NCBI RefSeq assembly: GCF_002549775.1
Contig: NZ_NMTR01000021.1
Location: forward strand, 496,001-560,000
Source of the DNA: Faecalibacterium langellae
Lineage (GTDB): Bacteria; Bacillota; Clostridia; Oscillospirales; Ruminococcaceae
Direction of reading: 5' to 3'
DNA length: 64,000 nt
Below, piece by piece: positions 1 to 47,007 of this stretch. The position numbers and the translations under genes were made by a program. The notes under the pieces were generated by a model, which saw only the letters and a program-made list of their open reading frames with translations, did not search any database and had not been told where the DNA came from. How positions within the stretch are numbered: the stretch's first letter is position 1; each line of letters opens with the position of its first letter.

Positions 1-1173
1 CTGGCGATCATTATTCTGAGCGCAAAATTCTGCGGCCTGGTGGCCCGCAAGTGCAAGGCCCCCCAGGTGGTGGGCGAGATCCTGGCCGGTCTGCTCATCG
101 GCCCGTGCGTGCTCAACCTGGTGCAGACCAATGACTCCATCTCCACCTTTGCCGAGATCGGCGTGGTGCTGCTGATGTTCTCCACCGGCCTTGGCACCAA
201 CCTCAAGGAGCTCATCAAGGCGGGCCCCATCGCCACCCTGATCGCCTGCGTGGGCGTGTTCGTCCCGCTGGTGGGCGGCACCTTATTATACAGCGCCTTC
301 TACGGCTTCTCGGCCGTGGGCAGCCCTGAGTTCTACCGCGCGCTGTTCATCGGCACCATCATGACGGCCACCAGCGTGTCCATCACGGTGGCCACCCTGC
401 AGGAGATGGGCCACCTGAAAAGCTTCCTGGGCACCACCATCGTCAGCGCCGCTGTCATTGATGACGTCATCGGCATCGTGGTGCTCACCTGCGTGCTGGG
501 CGCAAGCTCCGGCACCGGTACGGGTCTGGGCAAGGTGCTGGTCAACACGCTGCTGTTCTTTGCCACCGCTGTGGGCGTGGGCCTTGCGGTGCACTACGGC
601 ATGAAGTGGCTGGACAAGCGCAACCCCCACACCCAGCGCATCACCATCGTCAGCATGGCCTTCTGCTTTGCCATGGCCTACATCGCTGAGGAATACTTCG
701 GCATTGCCGATATTACCGGCGCCTACATTGCCGGCATCGTGCTGTGCACCATGGACGATGCATCCTATGTGGAGCGCCGCGTGGATATCAGCAACTATGT
801 GCTGTTCGCGCCAGTGTTCTTTGCGTCCATCGGCCTCAAGACCGACATCAGCGGCCTGACGCCGGAGATCCTGCTGTTCTGCATCTGCTTCGTCATCGTG
901 GCGCTGATCACCAAGATCATCGGCTGCGGCCTGGCCGCGAAGCTCTGCCGCTTCAACTGGGGCGATTCCCTCAAAGTGGGCGTCGGCATGATGACCCGCG
1001 GCGAGGTGGCGCTGATCGTGGCCCAGAAGGGCCTTGCCATCGGCGTGGTGGATGCGGTGTACTTCACGGCCGTCATCCTGCTGATCGTGGTGTCCAGTGT
1101 GGCGACCCCGCTGGTGCTGAAGGCGCTGTTCACCAAGCACCCGCCCGTGCCGCATCCCAGCCAGGTAAAATAA
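1..1173 (+). CDS. CPA2-family cation/proton antiporter, 5' end outside window
   Basis: Integral membrane exchanger that swaps Na+ or K+ for protons. The frame is open from base 1, so the gene begins upstream; 390 residues are visible. The protein is a series of about ten hydrophobic segments. Features typical of the monovalent cation:proton antiporter-2 family are the early APQVVGEILAGLLIGP stretch, the ATSVSITVATLQEMG segment followed by AAVIDDVIGIVVL (paired acidic residues expected at the ion site), and GMMTRGEVALIVA near the end. The protein stops soon after the last membrane segment, so the KefB-type nucleotide-binding (TrkA-N) tail is absent. It is followed by an ATGATGT-type repeat array and then a terminator. 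Family confident; ion not determined. Confidence 0.88.
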   Translation: MAIIILSAKFCGLVARKCKAPQVVGEILAGLLIGPCVLNLVQTNDSISTFAEIGVVLLMFSTGLGTNLKELIKAGPIATLIACVGVFVPLVGGTLLYSAFYGFSAVGSPEFYRALFIGTIMTATSVSITVATLQEMGHLKSFLGTTIVSAAVIDDVIGIVVLTCVLGASSGTGTGLGKVLVNTLLFFATAVGVGLAVHYGMKWLDKRNPHTQRITIVSMAFCFAMAYIAEEYFGIADITGAYIAGIVLCTMDDASYVERRVDISNYVLFAPVFFASIGLKTDISGLTPEILLFCICFVIVALITKIIGCGLAAKLCRFNWGDSLKVGVGMMTRGEVALIVAQKGLAIGVVDAVYFTAVILLIVVSSVATPLVLKALFTKHPPVPHPSQVK

Positions 1174-1256
1174 ATGATGTTGCTGCGCAAATGATGTGGC
1201 TTACGCCATGATGTCTGCTGCGCAGATGATGTGCACCGCACAGCGGTGCAATGAAA
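1174..1256 (+). repeat. ATGATGT spaced-heptamer array, copy 1
   Basis: The heptamer ATGATGT occurs at 1174, 1191, 1208 and 1226, a spacing of 17, 17 and 18 bases. Each is followed by a small palindrome (TTGCTGCGCAA, GGCTTACGCC, CTGCTGCGCAG, then a longer TGCACCGC...GCGGTGCA). The array starts three bases after the antiporter's stop codon begins and ends at the terminator. Related arrays lie at 1326-1385 (inverted) and 4805-4876. Confidence 0.85.
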
Positions 1257-1291
1257 ACACCCCGGAAGCTTTCGCGTTCCGGGGTGTTTTT
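1257..1291 (+). terminator. Rho-independent terminator, probably bidirectional
   Basis: 11-bp perfect stem (ACACCCCGGAA with TTCCGGGGTGT), 9-base loop, then TTTTT. The complement also ends in a short T run (TTTTCATT), so it could serve both the antiporter and the convergent galU. Confidence 0.9.
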
Positions 1292-1325
1292 CTGCTGTCG
1301 TATCGTCCTTCATGCGCCGCAGCGC

Positions 1326-1385
1326 ACATCATTTTTGCGAAGCAAAACATCATTGCGCCAGCACATCATGCCGAAGGCACATCAT
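1326..1385 (-). repeat. ATGATGT spaced-heptamer array, inverted copy
   Basis: The complement ACATCAT occurs at 1326, 1347, 1363 and 1379 (spacing 21, 16, 16), with short palindromes such as TTTTGCGAAGCAAAA between them. On the minus strand it lies immediately downstream of galU, so it too sits at the 3' end of a gene. Confidence 0.8.
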
Positions 1386-1395
1386 TGCGAAGCAC

Positions 1396-2271
1396 TCACA
1401 GTGTCTTGCAGAACTCTTTCAGGTAGGCGCGGAAGGCCTCGCCGATCTCCGGGTGCTGCAGTGCCAGCTCCACCTGGGCTTCCACCACCTTGAGCTTGTT
1501 GCCCATGTCGTAGTGCTTGCCGGTGAACTCCACCGCCGTCATGCCGCCGCGGGTGCGGGAGTACTCGGCCATGGCGTCGGTCAGCTGGATCTCGCCGCCT
1601 GCGCCGGGCTTGGTGTGGGCGAGGATGTCATAAATTTCCGGGGTCAGCAGCACGCGGCCCAGAATGGAATAGTTGCTGAACTCCTGACCCTTCTTGGGCT
1701 TCTCGATCATGTCATCCACAAAGAAATAGTTGTCGTGGAGGGGGGTGGTCTTCAGGCTGCAGTAGCGGCTCACGTCGGCCCAGGGCACCGCCGAGACACC
1801 GGCCACCGGGCGGCCGAACTCCTCATAAGCGCGGATCAGCTGGGCGCAGACCGGGTCCTCGCCCCAGATCACGTCGTCGCCGTAGATCACCACAAAGGGG
1901 TCGTCACCGGTAAAGGCTTTTGCCATGCTCACCGCGTGGCCCAGGCCCAGGGTCTGGTGCTGGCGCACGAACATGATGTTGGCCAGGTTCGAGATGCCCA
2001 GGCATTCTTCCAGCATCTTCTCCTTGCCGGGGGCGGCCAGCTTTGCTTCCAGCTCGGGGCTGCGGTCAAAGTGGTCTTCAATGATGCTCTGGCTGCGGCT
2101 CAGGATGATGAGGATATCGGTGATGCCGGAGCGCACCGCCTCCTCCACCAGATACTGGATGGCGGGCTTGTCCACGATGGGCAGCATGCCCTTGGGCATG
2201 GCTTTGGTGGCGGGCAGCACACGGGTGCCCAGACCTGCAGCGGGGATAACGGCCTTTGTGACCTTCTTCAT
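1396..2271 (-). CDS. galU: UTP-glucose-1-phosphate uridylyltransferase
   Basis: Cytoplasmic enzyme making UDP-glucose from UTP and glucose-1-phosphate, a precursor for cell-surface glycans and glycolipids. The 291-residue length is normal for bacterial GalU. The N-terminal nucleotide-binding signature AAGLGTRVLPATKAMPKGML is present, followed by VDKPAIQYLVEEA and VIYGDDVIW. The ATG at 2271 is preceded by AGGAG at good spacing. It lies 52 bp downstream of the zinc-finger membrane protein gene with no obvious terminator between, so the two may be co-transcribed. Confident family call. Confidence 0.95.
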   Translation of the reverse strand: MKKVTKAVIPAAGLGTRVLPATKAMPKGMLPIVDKPAIQYLVEEAVRSGITDILIILSRSQSIIEDHFDRSPELEAKLAAPGKEKMLEECLGISNLANIMFVRQHQTLGLGHAVSMAKAFTGDDPFVVIYGDDVIWGEDPVCAQLIRAYEEFGRPVAGVSAVPWADVSRYCSLKTTPLHDNYFFVDDMIEKPKKGQEFSNYSILGRVLLTPEIYDILAHTKPGAGGEIQLTDAMAEYSRTRGGMTAVEFTGKHYDMGNKLKVVEAQVELALQHPEIGEAFRAYLKEFCKTL

Positions 2272-2323
2272 GGTTCAACTCTCCTATTCTTAACAACTCG
2301 CACCGGTGTGCAGCCGGAAAAAC

Positions 2324-3289
2324 TCAGCCGACAAGGCCGGTCAGGGCGCTCAGATTGGGGCCCATCAGCAGGGTGAAGCAGGCACCCAGCACCATCAGCA
2401 GCACAAAGGCCCCCACGACGGCGGCCCAGCTCACGCCGCCCTGTGCGTTCAGCACGGCACGGCGCTGCACCTCGTCCGGGAACTCGCTGCGGATGCGCTT
2501 GATGTGGCTGGCCGCGCTCTTGCGGTAGAGCCACTTGGCGAACAGGGTGCGCACCATCACCAGCACGAAGCTCAGGATGGACATTACCCGGCTGAGGATG
2601 ACCAGCGTCGTGGTGCTCAGCCCGGCAGTCAGCGGGCTGTTGGTCACCCGCATCATGTCCAGCAGGGTGGGCAGCGCCAGCACCAGCTCCGCCGCCAGAA
2701 AGGCGAAGGCGGGCTTCCAGGCCTTGCGGTAGAAAAAGTAGAACGGGCCGAACAGCAGCGCCGAGAAGCTCATGGAGATTTTGGTGTGCTGCAGCTGCAT
2801 CCGGCTGTAATCGTTCAGGTAGGCGGGGGCCGCCTTGCCGATATAATCGCTCCAATCGCTGGACGGGATGCCGTCGATCAGCTCCTCCTGCCCGAAGGCG
2901 GTGCGCACATTCTGATGGGTGGGCTCCGCCACATTCTGGCGGTAGAAGCTGTCGTAGTCAAAGGTCTCGTTCTGCTCGTTCTGGGCAGCCCGGCGGTCGT
3001 TGGGCTCGGCGGCAGATTCCGGCGGCAGGGCGGCCCCGCAGCAGCGGCAGTTCGGCTCACTGCGCAGGGTGCGTTCGCCGCAGCTCGGGCAGGTGCGCAG
3101 CGCGGCGTCCTGGTAGGGGAACTTCCACTCATAGCCCGCGCCGTGGGCGGGGGTGTGGATGCAGCGGCCCAGTTTTTCGTAACAGTCGCGGTGGTAGGGC
3201 GCACCGCAGTCGGGGCAGACGACGATATCGTCTTTGAGGGTGAGCGGCTTTGCGCAGCCCTCACAGGGACAGCCATAATATTTCGGCAT
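2324..3289 (-). CDS. zinc-finger (prokaryotic RING-like) membrane protein with DUF2628-like region
   Basis: 321 residues. The first ~45 residues carry paired cysteines and histidine in the order expected of a prokaryotic RING/treble-clef finger (CEGCAKP, VCPDCGAPYHRDC); a second zinc ribbon follows (CPSCGERTL, CRCCGAAL). After a linker, the C-terminal half has a hydrophobic hairpin with the FGPFYFFYRKAWKPAF motif typical of DUF2628 proteins, then two or three membrane segments. It is probably an inner-membrane protein with cytoplasmic zinc domains; function unknown. The start has AGGAGG upstream, and a TATAAT box is seen at 3321-3326 (complement) with a poor -35. Confidence 0.75.
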   Translation of the reverse strand: MPKYYGCPCEGCAKPLTLKDDIVVCPDCGAPYHRDCYEKLGRCIHTPAHGAGYEWKFPYQDAALRTCPSCGERTLRSEPNCRCCGAALPPESAAEPNDRRAAQNEQNETFDYDSFYRQNVAEPTHQNVRTAFGQEELIDGIPSSDWSDYIGKAAPAYLNDYSRMQLQHTKISMSFSALLFGPFYFFYRKAWKPAFAFLAAELVLALPTLLDMMRVTNSPLTAGLSTTTLVILSRVMSILSFVLVMVRTLFAKWLYRKSAASHIKRIRSEFPDEVQRRAVLNAQGGVSWAAVVGAFVLLMVLGACFTLLMGPNLSALTGLVG

Positions 3290-37737: not shown

Positions 37738-40700
37738 TTAGTGCTTTGCAGCACGCTGTTTGCGGGTGAAGAACCATCCGCAGGCCAGCAGGCCGAAGCC
37801 GAAGCTCATCAGCACGACAGCCAGCCAGCCGGTGGTGCCGGTCTGGGGCAGGGTGTCGGCCTTGGTGGTATCCAGTGCGGGGGTCTCAGCCGGCTGGGCA
37901 GGCACGGTGGTGTCGTCCTGAGCCGGTTCCTCGCCGGGGGTCTCGTCCTGTGCAGGTGCGTCGGGCTCTGCAGGCTCCTCGGGGGTCTCCGGGGTCTCCG
38001 GACTCTCGGGCTCCGTGGGTTCCTCGGGCTCCGTCGGGACGACCGGGACATCGGGGATGTCCGTGCCGTTCTTCAGGTTGGTGAAGACGATCTCGGCGGT
38101 GTCATTCTTGGGCACAACGCCGGTGTCTGCGCCGCTGACGCTCTGCAGGGTCCAGCCGGTCTGGCGGACCTCGGCGATGGTGTAGCCAACGCCTGCAGGC
38201 AGGTTTGCGATGGTGATGCTTTCGCCGCCCTTCAGCGAGAAGGATGCGATGCCGTTTTCAAACTGCACGCCGTATTCTTCTGCGTCTGCGGTGGTGATGG
38301 TGTTGTCATCCAGCATCAGCATAAAGTTGAAGACGGTGTCCGCGTCGTCGGCGTCCAGCTCACCGGCCAGCTCCTTGGTGACCACCAGGGAACCGGTTGC
38401 GGTCTGCTTTTCGTTGACGAACGCGATCTCGGCGGTGGCGCGGTAGGGCACTTTGCCCTCGGCGTCGCCGTCCACCCGGGCCAGCAGCCAGCCGCCCTTG
38501 GACTGCTCGGTGATGGTGTAACCCATGCGAACAGGCAGGTTTTCGATGGTCTTGCTTTCGCCGTCTTTCAGGGTGAAGGTCGCCTTGCCGTTTTCGAACC
38601 GGACGCCGTACCGCTCGTCGTTCACGGTGTCGATGGTCTCATCGTCCAGCGTGAGCACGAAGGTGAACTCGGCGTCGCAGTCGTCCACCAGCATTTCACC
38701 GGTCATCTGCTTGTGGACGATCAGGCTGCCGGTGGGGCCGTGGGCGGCCTTGAGGGACAGGCGGTTGGTATAAGAAGTGACGGGTTCGACGAGAACCATG
38801 TGCAGGTCCGCTTCGTCCTCCGCGTGGGCGTTCCAGCGGGTGCTTTCATAGTCGTCGTACCAGCCGTCAATGGGGTGGTAGCAGTCCGGGTAACCGTCCA
38901 GTGCCCAGTCGCTGCCGGTAGCACCAAAGGTAATGGTGGCGCCGTCACCATTCTCAATGTCATCACCGCCAACCTTTGCATGGTTGTTGTACAGCTGCAC
39001 GTCATCCGAAAGAGTTGCAGTAGAATAGTTTCGGAGACCGCCGCCATACCAAGTGGAAGTGGTGTTATAACGAACACGGCCGGAGAGCAGCGTCAGGGTC
39101 GCATTTTCGTTATTGACAATGCCGCTGTTCTTGTTGTGCTCGACCTGCAGGTCAACGTCTCTTTCTACAGTAAACGTTCCACTCTTGGTGTTATAAATAC
39201 CGTAGGAATTGTTGTTATCGGCAGAAACATTTGCACCGGTCGCTACAATAAACGTTCCGAGGGAATTACCAATACCGAAAGATTTATTGTTGTCGGCAGA
39301 AACATTTGCGCCATTTTCTATGGTGAAAACTCCACCGTCATTGTAAATACCGTAGCCTTCGTTACGGTCGGCAGAAACATCTGCACCGCTCTGAATTGTA
39401 AAGTAGTCATCTGCAGGGGTGGAGAAATTTCCGTAGACGGTGTTGTAAATGCCAGCAGACGCATTGTTGTTGGCAGTGACATGTGCGCCGCCCTCAATGA
39501 GGAAGAAACCTGTTGCCCACGCTAGATCGCCACCGCCTGCATAGTTGTAGATGCCGACATCATTATTGTTTGCGGAGACATTGGCACCGCTTTTAATGGT
39601 AGTACGAGCATCGAAACTGTTTGCAAAGCCAAGCTGGCTATTGCCATCGATGATGACGGTTGCACCGCCTTCAATGTTCAGAATCCATTCGTTTAAAAGG
39701 CCGGACAAACCAACATTGTTGCGGGCATAGATATACGCACCGGATTCGATGGTCACGTTGCCTTCGTAGGTGGCATCGTCATGCTGTGCGTGCACGACAA
39801 AACCGCCGGTGGCACCATAAAGGTCAGCCTTACCGTTGCCCGTGCAGATAACCCGTCCACGAATATGACTTTCACCTTCACGGCTGTTGCCAATGCCGAC
39901 GCCAGAGCCGCCGCTGTCAGTAGCATACAACGTAGAAGCAGCATCCATATCAAGGACACCAGCATAAACGGCATAGCCATACCACCCGCCGGGGTTATTG
40001 GTTGCGGTGAGCGTGGAAGATATCATGGTCAACGTGCCGCCATAGCTTCCTACACCATAACAGCCGAGAGCACCGCCATAACCGTAGAGACCGTTACCAG
40101 TAAAATAGACATCGGCATTGTCCAGCGTGAGATTGATGGGGTCGATGGTCATTCCGTACCAGCCACAGTCTGTGACTTTCAGAGAAGACGAAGTGACCCA
40201 GATGCCGTGACCGTCTTCACTGTAACTCTCTGCGTAGATACCGCTGGCTTCTTCGGCAGCAAAACCGGAGATTTCAGCATTTGTATTGTCTTCAAAATAC
40301 AAATCACTGTCGTGCTCCAGGAAAATGCCGCTGCCCAAGATTTGGTCCGGTGTCAATGAGAATTCGACATGGCTCAAATGCAGCTTGCTGGAATGGGTGA
40401 TCAGGTTGGCCGTATTGCCTGCGCTGTGTTCATGGGTATGCTGAGCCGCATGAATGGTCAACGTGAGATCCTGGAACGTGATATCACTCTGATACGCATA
40501 CATGCCATACTGCTCCAGCGTCAGCGTGTAGGTATTGCCGCCGGAAATGGTCAAGTTCTTACTATGGAACTCAAGGCCCGTACTCAGCTCGATGTCCTGC
40601 AACAGATCAATCTGGGCGCCATCCGCTGCATCGTCGATCGCTTCGGTCAGCGTTGCATAGGTTTTGCCATTGATCGCACACACAGCCTGATCGCTGCCTG

Positions 40701-41094
40701 TGCCGTCCGCAGAGCCGGGCGTGTCCGCGTAGAGATCGGGGATGGGGTCGTCTGCATACAGGTCTTCCACAAACGGCGTTGTCGCGGCCGCCGCTGTTTT
40801 CGCACTGTTTGCATCCGCAGCGTCCTTCACCGGGTCCGTCTCCACCGGGTCCGTCTCCGCCGGGCCGGAAGCAGCATTTGTGCCGGGGTCCACAGCCACC
40901 GGGGTCTGTTCCTGTGAAACATCTGAAACATCTGAAACATCAAAGGAACAGAGATCGGTGGAAAGATCTTCCCAGCCAATAATGGTGCCGTCCGAATCCG
41001 TGATGGGGTCGGAACTCAGTGCAAGCGCACTCAGCGGCATGACACAAAGCAGCAATCCGATGGTCAGTATCGCTACAAACCATCTTTTTTTCAT
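37738..41094 (-). CDS. LPXTG-anchored surface protein with beta-helix and pilin-type isopeptide domains
   Basis: 1,118 residues, exported and sortase-anchored. Signal peptide (KKRWFVAILTIGLLLCVMPLSALA), an acidic Ala/Thr/Pro segment, then ~600 residues of right-handed beta-helix-like repeats. These include five related blocks of the type GANVSADNNxSxGIYN. Two Spy0128-like domains follow (GSLIVHKQMTG...AFVNEK and GSLVVTKELAG...VFTNLK); each shows the Lys, Glu (YTITE/YTIAE) and Asn expected to form an intramolecular isopeptide bond. A Pro/Glu-rich wall spacer leads to LPQTG at residues 1082-1086, a hydrophobic helix and RKQR. Likely an adhesin. The middle is visibly richer in A and T than the flanks. 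No sortase gene is nearby. Confidence 0.88.
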   Translation of the reverse strand: MKKRWFVAILTIGLLLCVMPLSALALSSDPITDSDGTIIGWEDLSTDLCSFDVSDVSDVSQEQTPVAVDPGTNAASGPAETDPVETDPVKDAADANSAKTAAAATTPFVEDLYADDPIPDLYADTPGSADGTGSDQAVCAINGKTYATLTEAIDDAADGAQIDLLQDIELSTGLEFHSKNLTISGGNTYTLTLEQYGMYAYQSDITFQDLTLTIHAAQHTHEHSAGNTANLITHSSKLHLSHVEFSLTPDQILGSGIFLEHDSDLYFEDNTNAEISGFAAEEASGIYAESYSEDGHGIWVTSSSLKVTDCGWYGMTIDPINLTLDNADVYFTGNGLYGYGGALGCYGVGSYGGTLTMISSTLTATNNPGGWYGYAVYAGVLDMDAASTLYATDSGGSGVGIGNSREGESHIRGRVICTGNGKADLYGATGGFVVHAQHDDATYEGNVTIESGAYIYARNNVGLSGLLNEWILNIEGGATVIIDGNSQLGFANSFDARTTIKSGANVSANNNDVGIYNYAGGGDLAWATGFFLIEGGAHVTANNNASAGIYNTVYGNFSTPADDYFTIQSGADVSADRNEGYGIYNDGGVFTIENGANVSADNNKSFGIGNSLGTFIVATGANVSADNNNSYGIYNTKSGTFTVERDVDLQVEHNKNSGIVNNENATLTLLSGRVRYNTTSTWYGGGLRNYSTATLSDDVQLYNNHAKVGGDDIENGDGATITFGATGSDWALDGYPDCYHPIDGWYDDYESTRWNAHAEDEADLHMVLVEPVTSYTNRLSLKAAHGPTGSLIVHKQMTGEMLVDDCDAEFTFVLTLDDETIDTVNDERYGVRFENGKATFTLKDGESKTIENLPVRMGYTITEQSKGGWLLARVDGDAEGKVPYRATAEIAFVNEKQTATGSLVVTKELAGELDADDADTVFNFMLMLDDNTITTADAEEYGVQFENGIASFSLKGGESITIANLPAGVGYTIAEVRQTGWTLQSVSGADTGVVPKNDTAEIVFTNLKNGTDIPDVPVVPTEPEEPTEPESPETPETPEEPAEPDAPAQDETPGEEPAQDDTTVPAQPAETPALDTTKADTLPQTGTTGWLAVVLMSFGFGLLACGWFFTRKQRAAKH

Positions 41095-41391: not shown

Positions 41392-42969
41392 TCAGCCGCC
41401 CAGAATGGCGTGCAGGTCGTCTTCCGGCGTGGTGACGGCTTTCAGGTCATATTTTTGCTGCAGCACCTGCACCACCCCCGGCGAGAGGAAGGCGGGCAGG
41501 GTGGGCCCCAGCCGGATGTTTTTGATGCCCAGCGCCAGCAGCGCGATCAGGATGCACACGGCCTTCTGCTCAAACCAGCACAGCACCAGCGAGAGCGGCA
41601 GGTCGTTCACCCCGCAGCCAAAGGCGTCTGCCAACGCCAGTGCGATGCGGATGGCACTGTAGGCGTCGTTGCACTGGCCCACGTCCAGAATGCGGGGCAG
41701 CCCGGTGCCGGGCACGTTGCCCAAAGGCAGATCGTTCAGCCGGAACTTGCCGCACGCCAGCGTCAGGATCACCGTGTCCTGCGGGGTGAGCTTGGCGAAC
41801 TCGGTGTAGTACCGGCGGGAAGGCCGTGTGCCGTCGCAGCCGCCCACCAGGAAAAAGTGCCGGATCTTGCCGTCCTTTACCGCCTGCACGATCTCGCCCG
41901 CATGGCGCAGCACGGCATCATGCGCAAAGCCGGTGACGACGGCCTTGCCGCCGTTCATGCCGGGCACGAGGGTGTCCTCTTTGTAGCCGCCCAGCTCCAG
42001 CGCCCGGCGGATGACGGGGGAGAAATCCCGCCCTTCGTCGATGTGCACGATGCCGGGGTAGGACACCACCGAGGTGGTGAACACCCGGTCGGCGTAACTC
42101 TCCCGCAGGGGCATGATGCAGTTGGTGGTGAACAGGATGGGCGCGGGGATATCCTCAAACTCGGTCTGCTGGTTCTGCCATGCGGTGCCGAAGTTGCCCT
42201 TCAGGTGGGGGTATTTCTGCTTCAGCTCCGGGTAGCCGTGGGCGGGCAGCATCTCCGAGTGGGTGTAGATGTGGATGCCCTTGCCCTTCGTCTGCTCGAG
42301 CAATTGCTGCATGTCGAACAGGTCATGGCCGGAAACCACGATGAACGGCCCTTTTTCAATGGTCAGCGGCACTTCCACCGGCACCGGGTCGCCAAAGGCC
42401 CCGGTGTTGGCGGCGTCCAGCAGCTCCATGCAGCGGTAGCTGGCTTCGCCGGTCTTCTGCACCAGCGCCCACAGCTCGTCCATGGAAAGGCCCTCGGCGC
42501 TCAGAGTTTCCAGCGCGGTGCAGAAAAAGCGGTCCAGCTCCGGGCTGATGCGGCCCAGCACCCGGGCGTGGTAGTTGTAGGCCGCCATGCCCCGCAGGCT
42601 GAACAGCACGAAGCTTTTCAGGCTGCGCACGTCCGGGTCCGGCTCGTGCCACAGCCGCTGCATGTCGTAGTCCGGCGCGACGGCCGGGCAGGCGGCGTGG
42701 ACCTTCTCGGTGAGGGCGTCCACGGTGGCGGCGTCAAAGTTGACATTGGTGATGGTGGTGAACAGCCCCTGCATCAGCAAAAGGGCCTGCTCCGGGGCCG
42801 GGGCGCGGCCCGCGTCCACCAGCTGCCCGGCATAGGTGATCAGCGCGCCGGTGAGCCGGTCCTGCGCGGCGGCTGTCTCGGCCGATTTGCCGCACACACC
42901 CGCTGCCCCGGTGCAGGCCGTGCAGCCCGCCGCCTGCTCACATTGAAAACAGAACATCCGCTCGTCCAT
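41392..42969 (-). CDS. hcp: hybrid cluster protein (hydroxylamine reductase)
   Basis: Iron-sulfur-oxygen enzyme that reduces hydroxylamine, and in other bacteria nitric oxide, under anaerobic nitrosative stress. 525 residues from ATG 42969, preceded by GGGAG; the open frame further upstream has no ribosome site. The N-terminal cluster motif FCFQCEQAAGCTACTGAAGVCGK is characteristic. Later cluster ligands lie in VVSGHDLFDMQQLLEQT, LFTTNCIMP, LVGGCDGTRPSRRYYTEFA and LACGKFRLNDLPLG. Complete. No Hcr reductase gene adjoins it. Confidence 0.94.
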   Translation of the reverse strand: MDERMFCFQCEQAAGCTACTGAAGVCGKSAETAAAQDRLTGALITYAGQLVDAGRAPAPEQALLLMQGLFTTITNVNFDAATVDALTEKVHAACPAVAPDYDMQRLWHEPDPDVRSLKSFVLFSLRGMAAYNYHARVLGRISPELDRFFCTALETLSAEGLSMDELWALVQKTGEASYRCMELLDAANTGAFGDPVPVEVPLTIEKGPFIVVSGHDLFDMQQLLEQTKGKGIHIYTHSEMLPAHGYPELKQKYPHLKGNFGTAWQNQQTEFEDIPAPILFTTNCIMPLRESYADRVFTTSVVSYPGIVHIDEGRDFSPVIRRALELGGYKEDTLVPGMNGGKAVVTGFAHDAVLRHAGEIVQAVKDGKIRHFFLVGGCDGTRPSRRYYTEFAKLTPQDTVILTLACGKFRLNDLPLGNVPGTGLPRILDVGQCNDAYSAIRIALALADAFGCGVNDLPLSLVLCWFEQKAVCILIALLALGIKNIRLGPTLPAFLSPGVVQVLQQKYDLKAVTTPEDDLHAILGG

Positions 42970-43036
42970 AGAAAAACTCCCTTTCCTGCGTGAGATACCG
43001 GGAGTATGGCCGAAAAGCGCCGCCGTTATGCACACA

Positions 43037-43079
43037 CAAAAAACAAGCGTGCACACGGGGCACTGCCCATGCGCACGCT
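43037..43079 (-). terminator. terminator of csoR-copA
   Basis: On the minus strand AGCGTGCGCA pairs with TGTGCACGCT (one G-T pair) across a 14-base loop, then TTGTTTTTTG. Confidence 0.8.
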
Positions 43080-43105
43080 CGTTTGGAAGGGAGCCTGGTT
43101 TTGGC

Positions 43106-43315
43106 TTACTGGATGCCGGTCACCTTGTAGTCCTGGTCCTCGACGGCCTTCTTCAGCACGTCGTCGGCCACTTCGGCGTTCAGGGTGACGATGGCGGTGC
43201 CGGCCTCGTGGCTCACCACGGCCTCGTCCACCTCGGGCAGGGCTTCCAGAGCCTTCTTCACGCGGGCCTCGCAGTGGCCGCACATCATGCCTTCTACGTT
43301 CAGGGTCTTCTTCAT
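43106..43315 (-). CDS. copZ: CopZ-like copper chaperone from an internal in-frame start in copA
   Basis: 69-residue heavy-metal-associated domain with the Cu+ motif GMMCGHC. It is in the same frame as copA and shares its stop codon. AAGGAGG (43330-43324) lies eight bases before ATG 43315, as good a ribosome site as any in the window. The residues just before ([11 protein letters not shown]) look like a flexible linker. A free chaperone would deliver Cu+ to the pump; the same output is achieved in E. coli copA by frameshifting. Translation of the separate product is inferred from sequence only. Confidence 0.6.
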
Positions 43316-45670
43316 GGAATTGTCCTCCTTGGTACTCTCTTTGTTTTCAACCGCTGCGGGCTGCGTCAGGGCAGCGGGCAGGGAAGATGCATTTTTGGGC
43401 GCATGGTCGCGCTTGGTGCTGTGCAGATCAAACAGGTTCAGGCGCAGGGCGTTGCTTACCACGCAGAAGCTGGAAAGGCTCATGGCAGCAGCACCGAACA
43501 TGGGGTTCAGCGTCAGGCCGAAGGGGATGAACACGCCTGCGGCCAGCGGGATGCCGATGATGTTGTAGATGAACGCCCAGAACAGGTTTTCGTGGATGTT
43601 GCGCAGGGCAGCACGGCTCAGGCGGATGGCGGCGGGCACGTCCGACAGCTTGGAGTTCATCAGCACCACGTCCGCCGCGTCGATGGCAACGTCGGTGCCT
43701 GCGCCGATGGCGATGCCGGTGTCGGCACGGGTCAGGGCCGGGGCATCGTTGATGCCGTCGCCCACCATGGCCACCTTGCCGGATGCCTGCAGCTGGCGAA
43801 TGACCGCTTCCTTGCCGTCGGGCAGCACGCCTGCGATCACCTCGTCCACACCGGCCTGCCTGCCAATGGCGTCGGCAGTGCGCTGGTTGTCACCGGTGAG
43901 CATGACCACGCGGATGCCCATGGCCTGCAGCTCCCGGATGGCGCGGGGGCTGTCCTCCTTGATGGTATCGGCCACCGCGATGATGCCCAGCAGACGGCCT
44001 GCTCCGCCGAAGAACAGGGGCGTTTTGCCCTGTGCGGAAAGGGCTGCGGCCTTCTCCTGCAGCTGTGCGGGCACGGTGACTTTGGTGCCGATAAAGGACG
44101 CATTGCCGCCAAAGATCTCCACGCCGTCCAGCTTTGCGGCCAGACCGTTGCCCGGCAGGGCGGCAAAGCCGGATACCTCGGGGGCGGTGAGCTTCTGCGC
44201 GTCGGTGCAGGCCAGCACGGCCTTTGCCAGCGGGTGCTCGCTCTTGCGCTCCAGTGCGGCGGCAAGGGTGAGCAGCTCCGTCTCGGAAACGCCCTCGGCG
44301 GGCAGAATGTCAGTCACTTTTGGTTCGCCGCTGGTGATGGTGCCGGTCTTGTCCAGCGCCACGATCTGGGTGCGGCCTGCAGCTTCCAGCGAAGCGGCGG
44401 TCTTGAACAGGATGCCGTTCTTTGCACCCAGACCGTTGCCCACCATGATGGCCACCGGCGTTGCCAGACCCAGCGCACAGGGGCAGCTGATGACCAGCAC
44501 GGAGATGCCGCGGGCCAGCGCATAGCCCAGCTCCCGGCCCAGCAGCAGCCACACGATGGTGGTGACCACCGCAATGGTAATGACCGCAGGCACGAAGAAA
44601 CCGGACACCGTATCGGCGATTTTTGCAATGGGAGCCTTGGTGGCGGCGGCGTCGCTGACCATCCGGATGATCTGGGCAAGGGTGGTGTCCTCACCCACGC
44701 GGGTGGCCCGGCACTGCAGGAAACCGGACTGGTTGGTGGTGGCAGCGCTCACCTTGTCGCCCTCGGCCTTGTCCACGGGGATGCTCTCGCCGGTCAGGGC
44801 GCTCTCGTTCACGGCGCTGGTGCCTTCCAGCACGATGCCGTCCACGGGGATGTTCTCGCCCGGGCGCACCACAAAGATGTCCCCCTTCTGCACCTGCTCG
44901 ATGGGCACGGTCACTTCGGCACCGTCCCGCAGCAGGGTGGCGGTCTTGGGGGCAAGCTTCATCAGGCTCTTGAGCGCGTCGGTGGTCTTGCCCTTGGAGC
45001 GGGCCTCCAGCATCTTGCCCACCGTGATGAGGGTCAAAATCATGGCGGCGGACTCAAAGTAGAACTCCATCATATAGTGCATGACCAGCTCACTGTTGCC
45101 GTCCACCTGCGCGCGGGTCATGGCGAACAGGGCGTAGGTGCTCCACACAAAGCTTGCCATGGAACCCATGGCCACCAGCGTGTCCATGTTGGGCGAGCCG
45201 TGGAGGAGCCCCTTGAAGCCGTTGATGAAGAACTTCTGGTTGATGACCATGACGATGCCCGCCAGCAGCAGCTGCACAAGGCCCATGGCGATGTGGTTGC
45301 CGTCGAACCAGCGGGGCAGGGGCCAGCCCCACATCATGTGGCCCATGGAGAAGTACATCAGCACCAGCAGAAAGCCCAGCGACGCAATGAGCCGCCGCTT
45401 GAGCTTGGGGGTCTCGTGGTCGGCCAGCGCGTCAAGGTCGGCGCTGGTGGAGCTGGCAGCCGCCGCGCCCGCACGCTTGGGGCTGGCACCGTAACCGGCA
45501 TCCTGCACGGCCTTGATGATCTCGGCAGAGCTGGCGGTGCCCTCCACGCCCATGGAGTTGGTCAGCAGGCTCACCGAGCAGCTGGCAACGCCGGGCACCT
45601 TGCTCACGGCCTTCTCCACCCGGGCGGAGCAGGCTGCGCAGCTCATGCCGGTAACGTTGTATTGTTCCAT
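43106..45670 (-). CDS. copA: copper-exporting P1B-type ATPase with a C-terminal CopZ-like domain
   Basis: 854 residues. The N-terminal metal-binding domain has [15 protein letters not shown]; a second HMA domain with [15 protein letters not shown] forms the C-terminus (residues 786-854), an uncommon place for it. In between: eight membrane segments, the Cu+ site CPC in [12 protein letters not shown] (~residue 396), phosphorylation site DKTGTIT (~440), HP motif SEHPLAKAV, and hinge [12 protein letters not shown]. It pumps Cu+ out of the cell. Lies 42 bp after csoR with no promoter between. An internal ribosome site and ATG start the C-terminal domain separately (next entry). Confidence 0.95.
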
Positions 45671-45712
45671 AAAATATCACTCCTACGTTGAGTATGCACG
45701 GGAACGGGCTTC

Positions 45713-46108
45713 TTATTTCATGAGCTTGGGCAGCAGATTCATCAGCTCGTCCAGCTTTACCTCGCTGCCCGCACGCAGGTCGTCCGCCACGCAGGTGGAG
45801 ATGTGCTGTGCCAGCAGCTCCTTGGAAAAGCTGTTCAGCGCCGAGTTCGCCGCCGCCACCTGCACAAGGATGTCCACGCAGTAGGCATCTTTTTCCAGCA
45901 TGCCGCGGATGCCGCGCACCTGCCCCTCGATGCGGCTGAGCCGGTTCAGCAGGGCCTTGTGTTCCTCAGGGGTGCGGTCCTTGTGGCGGCAGCAGGAGGG
46001 GGTGACGCTTTCGGTGGGCACAGCGGATGCGTCAACGGCCGGAGCCGTGGCAGCTTCGGGCTGGGCGGGCGTGCTGCAACAGCAGCAGGGCTTTTTCTCG
46101 TTGTCCAT
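45713..46108 (-). CDS. csoR: CsoR family copper-sensing repressor with Cys-rich extension
   Basis: Helical dimeric repressor released from DNA by Cu+. 131 residues against about 90-105 for typical CsoR. The core RTPEEHKALLNRLSRIEGQVRGIRGMLEKDAYCVDILVQ contains the first Cys ligand; the His-x-x-x-Cys pair is in HISTCV. The first ~45 residues form an extra tail, low in complexity, with clusters CCCC and SCCRH that may bind additional metal. It heads the csoR-copA operon and probably represses itself through the palindrome at 46122-46136. Confidence 0.9.
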   Translation of the reverse strand: MDNEKKPCCCCSTPAQPEAATAPAVDASAVPTESVTPSCCRHKDRTPEEHKALLNRLSRIEGQVRGIRGMLEKDAYCVDILVQVAAANSALNSFSKELLAQHISTCVADDLRAGSEVKLDELMNLLPKLMK

Positions 46109-46121
46109 AAAATATCTCCTT

Positions 46122-46136
46122 TACCCATAGGGGGTA
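46122..46136. promoter_or_regulatory. CsoR-type operator
   Basis: TACCC-ATAGG-GGGTA, an inverted repeat with the C-run/G-run layout of known CsoR sites (for example at Bacillus copZA). It is just downstream of the predicted transcription start and overlaps the csoR ribosome site. Confidence 0.75.
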
Positions 46137-46152
46137 TACATCTTACAGCATG

Positions 46153-46181
46153 AGTATAGCACAGCAAACCCGATAAATCAA
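46153..46181 (-). promoter_or_regulatory. promoter of csoR-copA
   Basis: On the minus strand TTGATT (46181-46176), 17-base spacer, TATACT (46158-46153). Confidence 0.82.
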
Positions 46182-46200
46182 GTAGGGAATTGAAAAATAC

Positions 46201-46240
46201 AAACAAAAAGAGGGAAGGCACTGCAAATGCCTTCCCTCTA
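46201..46240 (-). terminator. terminator of the hydrolase-like gene
   Basis: On the minus strand AGAGGGAAGGCA pairs with TGCCTTCCCTCT around a 7-base loop, followed by TTTTTGTTTG. Confidence 0.9.
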
Positions 46241-46251
46241 TCAAATCACTT

Positions 46252-47007
46252 TTACTTCTCCAGAATCCGCGGCACAAACAGGCCCAGCATCTTGCCCCAC
46301 CAGTACCACTCGTGGGAGACATCGCCGCCCCAGACCTCGAGGTGGGCGGGCAGGCCCTGTGCGGCCAGCACATCGGCCAGCGCCTGCGTGTCGGCTTTGG
46401 CATCGTCCTCGTAGGCACCCTGACCGGCGCAGAGCATCAGGCTGTTCTCCTTGGCCTTGGCCAGAGCCAGCTTGTCGGCGATGCCGTTCTCGGCCAGATA
46501 CTGCAGGGGAGAGCAGCGCAGCACCAGATCGTCGGCTTCACTGCCCCAGAAGCGGGCCAGATCGTAGATGCCGGAAAGGCCGATGGCACCGGCAAAGAGC
46601 TTGGGACGGCGCAGGCGGCAGTTGACGGCGTGCACAGCGCCAAGGTCGATGCCCACACACCACAGCTTGGCATCCTTTGCGGCACCGTTCAGGGCCAGCA
46701 CCCGGGGAGCCAGCTCGGCGGTAAGGTAGACGAAGTACTTTTCCTCCATCTCGGCGCGGCGGCGCACCGGGATGTCGCCGTTCAGTACGGCCTCGCCGTC
46801 AATGCTGTCGGCGCAGAACAGCTGCACCTTGCCCTCGTTCAGCAGCGGGGCAATGGCATCGGGCATGCCGTTGTTCTCCCAATCATAAAAGCGGCCGCCG
46901 CGGGCAGGCAGGGCCAGCACCGGCACACCGGCGCTGCCGTATACCTTGAACTCCATCTCGCGGTTCAGCACGCTGCTCCACTCTTTGTAATAGGTACCCT
47001 GGATCAT
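46252..47007 (-). CDS. esterase-like alpha/beta-hydrolase with Asp in the nucleophile position
   Basis: 251 residues. It resembles the small 'esterase/PHB depolymerase-like' proteins of Clostridia: VPVLALPARGGRFYDWEN near residue 30, QLFCADSIDGE, and the C-terminal HEWYWWGKMLGLFVPRIL with the expected catalytic His. At the nucleophile elbow the usual G-x-S-x-G reads G119-I-D121-L-G123, so Asp replaces Ser. It may be inactive or use a different chemistry. AAGGAG upstream of ATG 47007; a terminator follows. Neighbouring DUF4250 gene lies 100 bp upstream. Confidence 0.7.
   Translation of the reverse strand: MIQGTYYKEWSSVLNREMEFKVYGSAGVPVLALPARGGRFYDWENNGMPDAIAPLLNEGKVQLFCADSIDGEAVLNGDIPVRRRAEMEEKYFVYLTAELAPRVLALNGAAKDAKLWCVGIDLGAVHAVNCRLRRPKLFAGAIGLSGIYDLARFWGSEADDLVLRCSPLQYLAENGIADKLALAKAKENSLMLCAGQGAYEDDAKADTQALADVLAAQGLPAHLEVWGGDVSHEWYWWGKMLGLFVPRILEK

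Follow-up and report, generated by a model that had tools for sequence, protein, structure and literature searches.

The window, a 64,000-nucleotide stretch of Faecalibacterium DNA, carries on its minus strand a csoR-like gene (46108..45713) and then copA (45670..43106). The features identified at this locus are listed below.

46153..46181, minus strand: promoter-like sequence TTGATT-17-TATACT upstream of csoR (weak; 1 found against 0.5 expected from shuffles)
46122..46136, minus strand: inverted repeat TACCC-N5-GGGTA, read from the sequence
45713..46108, minus strand: csoR-like repressor gene, 131 amino acids (PF02583, 7.9e-30)
43106..45670, minus strand: copA, 854-amino acid P1B Cu-ATPase with HMA domains at the N- and C-termini (TIGR01511)
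45491..45661, minus strand: N-terminal HMA domain, residues 4-60, GMSCAAC (Pfam)
43316..43435, minus strand: variable, low-confidence linker, about residues 746-785 (pLDDT and linker lengths in relatives)
43324..43330, minus strand: internal Shine-Dalgarno (SD) sequence AAGGAGG (ΔG -11.4 and conservation)
43313..43315, minus strand: putative internal start ATG, Met786 (sequence and conservation)
43106..43315, minus strand: predicted nested copZ, 69 amino acids, calculated mass 7441 Da, CopZ-like HMA domain with GMMCGHC (PF00403)
43041..43084, minus strand: intrinsic terminator-like hairpin directly after copA/copZ (19 pairs)

The promoter-like sequence upstream of csoR was the only one in the scanned region (42900..46400), and none was found in the linker. 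Terminator-like hairpins numbered four in the scanned region against 2.4 expected. We take the TACCC-N5-GGGTA repeat to be CsoR-operator-like; as a raw count, TACCC-N3..6-GGGTA occurs within the first 3 kb in 56 of the 80 named loci compared (the best 80 of 594). In the csoR-like repressor, the N-terminal extension is rich in cysteine, with CCCC and a later CC. Among 61 csoR-like open reading frames (ORFs) at loci L039-L118, the extension contains a CC run in 38 and CCC or longer in 15, and possibly it provides extra copper binding.

The CopA amino acid sequence scored 589.6 bits against the TIGR01511 Cu-translocating ATPase profile (cutoff 397), and the membrane motif C396-P397-C398 and the D440-K-T-G-T sequence are invariant in 27 aligned proteins. 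An AlphaFold model built with 27 sequences (mean pLDDT 70.6, pTM 0.54) had copper P1B-ATPases as its top Foldseek matches. The Pfam HMA profile PF00403 recognized two stretches in the whole protein. One of them lies within the last 69 residues, which carry the GMxCxxC motif and scored 59.4 bits by themselves (cutoff 24.8), confirming the CopZ-like domain with GMMCGHC that the first-pass annotation had described. In the model, residues 760-784 of the linker have pLDDT values below 50, and residues 786-853 are predicted to form a β-α-β-β-α-β fold with values of 82-89 from residue 791. When the domain was compared with the sequences of solved structures, the CopA N-terminal domains 2rml and 1p6t ranked first; the CopZ structures 6ff2, 1k0v and 2qif were also matched, with CopZ ranking third. 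Filing the domain under the NCBIfam CopZ models was rejected since its scores are below both cutoffs (56.6 versus 85 for the equivalog model NF047957 and 54.2 versus 91 for the exception model NF033795). Whole CopA passes NF047957 (108.9), but by summing two stretches.

The AAGGAGG sequence (43330..43324) is followed, after an 8-nucleotide spacer, by ATG 43315, which encodes Met786 at the start of the 69-residue domain; these elements and their good spacing are as first annotated. The SD:anti-SD pairing at the internal start has a calculated energy of -11.4 kcal/mol, compared to -6.8 at copA's own start and -8.7 at that of csoR. As a measure of chance, in-frame ATGs inside 36 long ORFs of the window were scored, and 4 of 250 have an SD of -9 or better; copA is not in this set, its place being taken by a longer ORF on the opposite strand. 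When codons were resampled synonymously with the peptide kept (500 draws), an equally strong SD appeared in 67% of the draws because Lys-Glu in the codon usage of copA tends toward AAGGAG. Therefore, the SD and start at this single locus are suggestive only, and significance must come from the relatives. Taken alone, the site could be due to chance or to amino acid constraint, in that a linker rich in Lys and Glu, together with a conserved Met, would mimic an SD by coincidence; the frequency of KE at the site and the unexceeded synonymous null at this locus speak for it.

A total of 264 loci (L009-L272) were collected, 30 from the genus, 80 from named organisms and 154 from order, phylum and follow-up searches. 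The genus search covered 31 genomes; G026 showed no close copA match, and a second fused copy in G009 was left out. The named set consists of the best 80 of 594 loci, and the nearest named kin in it are Faecalibacterium. The order and phylum searches covered 297 and 398 genomes, respectively, and their loci were chosen from ranked lists, deliberately with weak matches and stop-containing loci, so that the survey is a non-random sample of mutually related loci. All 150 matches listed in the order search span the junction between pump and domain, and the four inside which one stop was flagged are all fused on HMM parsing. This parsing divided the 264 loci into 240 fused copA genes and 24 with copA and copZ separate. 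Removal of six duplicates left 258 distinct loci, 234 of them fused. A first set of 106 distinct loci (109 minus three duplicates) was analyzed without L060, which is included in the later sets. Fused copA genes were seen across the genus, the order and the phylum, and at two Synergistetes loci.

Each gene was examined for an in-frame ATG no more than 15 codons before the domain with an SD at ΔG ≤ -7 or ≤ -5.4. Both elements were present in 190 of the 234 distinct fused genes at the stricter threshold and in 216 at the other, and the SD and Met, which the first-pass annotation had pointed to in one genome, are thus kept in relatives. Eighteen shifted anchors used as controls gave a mean of 2.7% (maximum 11%) at ≤ -7 and 11.5% (maximum 38%) at ≤ -5.4. 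Divided by set, 29/30 genus, 77/77 distinct named (best 80 of 594) and 110/127 order/phylum genes passed at ≤ -5.4; at ≤ -7, the numbers were 28/30, 76/77 (again from the best 80 of 594) and 86/127. The internal ATG is found in all 30 genus loci, and the two exceptions at -7 are an anchor offset with -9.5 (L037) and a weak site of -5.5 (L019). Fourteen of the 234 failed a test for ATG or GTG, L037 and L229 being anchor offsets in which the start lies one codon on; in L186, the ATG is present and the SD is poor (-4.5). After thinning to below 65% identity (n = 37), ATG was found in 33 genes, and ATG with an SD in 29 at ≤ -5.4 and in 23 at ≤ -7. At 70 named loci, the internal SD was stronger than copA's own in 47, equal in one and weaker in 22 (medians -9.3 and -9.4, respectively; Wilcoxon p 0.008).

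The signal is localized. In the first 106 loci, SDs at ≤ -7 peak at positions -17..-13 (69-96 of 106), while each position from -99 to -19 has only 0-4. Among 1570 in-frame ATGs of the pump end, 85 have an SD at ≤ -7 and 364 at ≤ -5.4. A conserved SD and start thus lie inside the ORF at the domain border, as in genes with internal in-frame initiation. The coincidence described above would be extremely improbable: synonymous resampling of the first 106 loci predicts 51 sites at ≤ -7 against the 101 observed, other codon positions of the linker reach -7 in just 163 of 3999 cases (4.1%), and the SD occurs in differing codon phases over differing peptides. In the 220 fused genes with the ATG, GGAG falls in the three codon phases 152, 25 and 1 times and is missing from 42 genes, and the peptides beneath it include KE, which is common, EE, TE, QE, ME, GD, GE and others. 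Within the SD, the Glu codon is GAG in 145 cases and GAA in 17; the next Glu codon is GAG in 20 and GAA in 70, and the pump ends use 837 GAG and 779 GAA (p 6e-23 and 1e-27). Mean folding energies in 40-nucleotide windows are -6.7 to -10.3 kcal/mol at 60-100 nucleotides from the start and rise to -1.5 at the start itself, a dip in mRNA structure that is uncorrected for composition, G+C also dropping at the internal start. Together, the conservation, phase, codon and structure data point to selection on an RNA initiation signal rather than on the peptide.

Two other roles for such a sequence were considered. SD-like runs within genes have been proposed as signals that slow the ribosome, and a brake at this point might help the pump to fold or to insert into the membrane, with the Met incidental. 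A brake would not account for the 8-nucleotide spacing to the ATG in 162 of 220 genes, nor for loci where GTG replaces ATG with the SD kept (L133, L160) or where start and SD are found together 13-14 codons upstream (L203, L226). Moreover, an SD at ≤ -7 is present in the border region of 189/220 genes with the ATG and seldom in that of genes without it (3/14, p 5e-7). We consider pausing most unlikely. The second possibility is programmed frameshifting stimulated by the SD, as occurs in dnaX, which would produce a pump without the C-terminal domain. The SD does lie near Lys codons, and in the -1 frame a stop often follows within a short distance (median 12 codons). However, no slippery heptamer is conserved in the zero frame (at most 5 of 220 genes at any codon from -4 to +6), and the conservation of the ATG is left unexplained; a frameshift at the internal-start border was rejected on the heptamer counts, and we find this reading exceedingly improbable.

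The first-pass annotation had offered as its alternative a recent fusion of copA and copZ that kept the old start. The copA stop would have been lost and the leftover ribosome binding site (RBS) and start would make nothing relevant. Unfused copA-copZ pairs with an SD and a start do exist; in the comparison with separate genes that had been suggested, 22 of 24 pairs passed the same test. In addition, the CopZ domains of fused and separate genes intermingle to some extent in a poorly resolved tree. However, a leftover RBS would be expected to degenerate when the linker around it ranges between 12 and 97 codons in length, yet the SD, the choice of GAG and the ATG are all kept. Since the fusion is as widespread as described above and linker turnover has not erased the start and SD, a recent fusion is an inadequate explanation and was not borne out; a fossil start is highly unlikely. 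Like coincidence, pausing and frameshifting, it fits the data worse than internal initiation. Because 22 of the 24 unfused pairs carry the start and SD, the internal start may well descend from the RBS of a formerly separate copZ.

Fourteen fused genes have no ATG at the border. Three have a GTG, with the SD-like run kept in L133 and L160 and weaker in L194, two have the upstream start (L203 and L226) and nine have no credible start. In a tree based on few columns and with weak forks, these 14 rows require at least six changes by well-supported branches. Twelve genes were counted as start-less (L141, L156, L178, L179, L180, L190, L191, L195, L219, L232, L235 and L271), including L190, although its weak GTG passes the test, and L156, L232 and L271, in which an ATG is located away from the border. 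Among these, the loss of start and SD together is near-complete: an SD-like run of -7.2 remains in L179, and a TTG with -6.1 is present in L235. With neither a credible start nor an SD in about 12 of the 234 genes, and a poor SD in L186, the free form would not be universal.

A gene or domain of the HMA type adjoins copA in 7 of the 12 start-less genomes and, among the matches listed, in 2 of 52 others (Fisher p 4e-5), the two genomes with the upstream start (G159 and G549) being counted among the others. A CopZ-type gene with SD and ATG lies downstream of copA in G319 and G265, and a CopZ-like gene lies upstream of it in G678. In G617, copA contains a second C-terminal HMA domain with its own SD and ATG; in this 978-codon frame (L282), they precede the last of the two C-terminal HMA domains and not the first. 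A small HMA protein of another family is encoded downstream of copA in G304, G174 and G186. In G188, G129, G262, G528 and G036, no HMA gene adjoining copA was found. With CopZ-type neighbors only (G319, G265, G678), the contrast is weak (3/12 versus 2/52 among the matches listed, p 0.04). In G248 and G309, an HMA gene adjoins copA despite the internal start being kept (among the matches listed); it is a separate ORF of 129 amino acids from stop to stop, directly upstream (L287, L288). Small HMA proteins of the GMMCGMC type, a family assigned by eye, occur whether or not a genome has the internal start; therefore, adjacency to copA alone was compared. The idea that a free CopZ complements a lost start is partly supported by these gene neighborhoods.

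These observations make it very probable that copA is a nested gene in which a selected internal initiation yields a free CopZ of 7.4 kDa in addition to the fused pump. Ribosomes starting at 45670 would produce the 854-amino acid copper pump, with its CopZ-like domain held at the C-terminus by a flexible linker. Ribosomes recruited by the internal AAGGAGG would instead begin at ATG 43315, giving a free 69-amino acid cytosolic Cu(I) chaperone, which we infer to deliver Cu(I) to the pump. A single csoR-copA message, probably induced by copper, would then yield both proteins at a ratio set by the two RBSs. The proposal that one gene gives pump and chaperone is thus supported by start and SD conservation in the fused relatives. 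With somewhat less confidence, we think it likely that nested copA/copZ genes extend across much of the Clostridia, with examples in Synergistetes, that the start is kept by selection, that the arrangement is independent of the frameshift in E. coli, and that where the start is missing a chaperone-like neighbor tends to adjoin copA.

In E. coli, the chaperone CopA(Z) is the N-terminal domain of CopA, and work by Meydan and by Drees in 2017 reportedly described the programmed frameshifting that generates CopA and CopA(Z). Cas11 and SctQ-C are products of internal in-frame starts. PMC10187127 and PMC9548414 describe programmed frameshifting in E. coli copA as leading to the full pump and the free copper chaperone CopA(Z). 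As in that system, a single copA gene is proposed here to give a pump and a free chaperone; unlike it, the chaperone would come from the C-terminus, through internal initiation. The analogy to CopA(Z) drawn in the first-pass annotation would hold for the outcome, with a different mechanism; no conserved slippery heptamer was found at the internal-start border. The arrangement also resembles separate copA-copZ operons in domain type, order and RBS. In those operons, copZ follows the copA stop, whereas here there is no stop and the pump itself carries the CopZ-like domain. Another comparison system, described in PMC7558416, has CopZ fused to an iron-sulfur domain. As predicted here, the bacterial in-frame downstream starts described in PMC11005335 combine an SD and a start within a gene to give a shorter C-terminal protein; copA does not occur in that text. 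Among the open-licence papers listed by the literature searches, no title or abstract beginning describes an internally started CopZ in copA, and no report or data on a small CopZ product of a fused copA was found among them. An internally initiated CopZ would be a new route to a known one-gene pump-plus-chaperone outcome.

If this is correct, production of both proteins from one gene has evolved at least twice, by different translational mechanisms, and a hidden copZ may be present in gut bacteria whose annotation shows none. Standard ORF calling gives one 854-amino acid protein only and would miss the nested CopZ. By our reckoning, tryptic peptides near the internal start are common to the pump or too short, and therefore shotgun proteomics would likely miss the free form. 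The combination of a domain and an SD could be used as a signature to seek other hidden C-terminal proteins.

The genome to which the window belongs encodes another small HMA protein about 350 kb from copA, which might be an alternative free chaperone. A second small HMA family (GMMCGMCESHVNDAVR...) is represented in this genome by L289 (C11:887596-887802), far from copA, as in several relatives; judged by eye, members of this family also sit immediately after copA in three of the start-less genomes (L273, L276, L279). Another frame of this genome, on the minus strand of C76 at about 547-3225, resembles a heavy-metal ATPase and has three HMA matches in tandem at its N-terminus. Elsewhere in the window (41094..37738, minus strand), an ORF of 1118 amino acids resembles a surface protein, with repeated Cna-B-like stretches and a sortase-anchor-like LPQTG end followed by a membrane segment, as assigned by eye.
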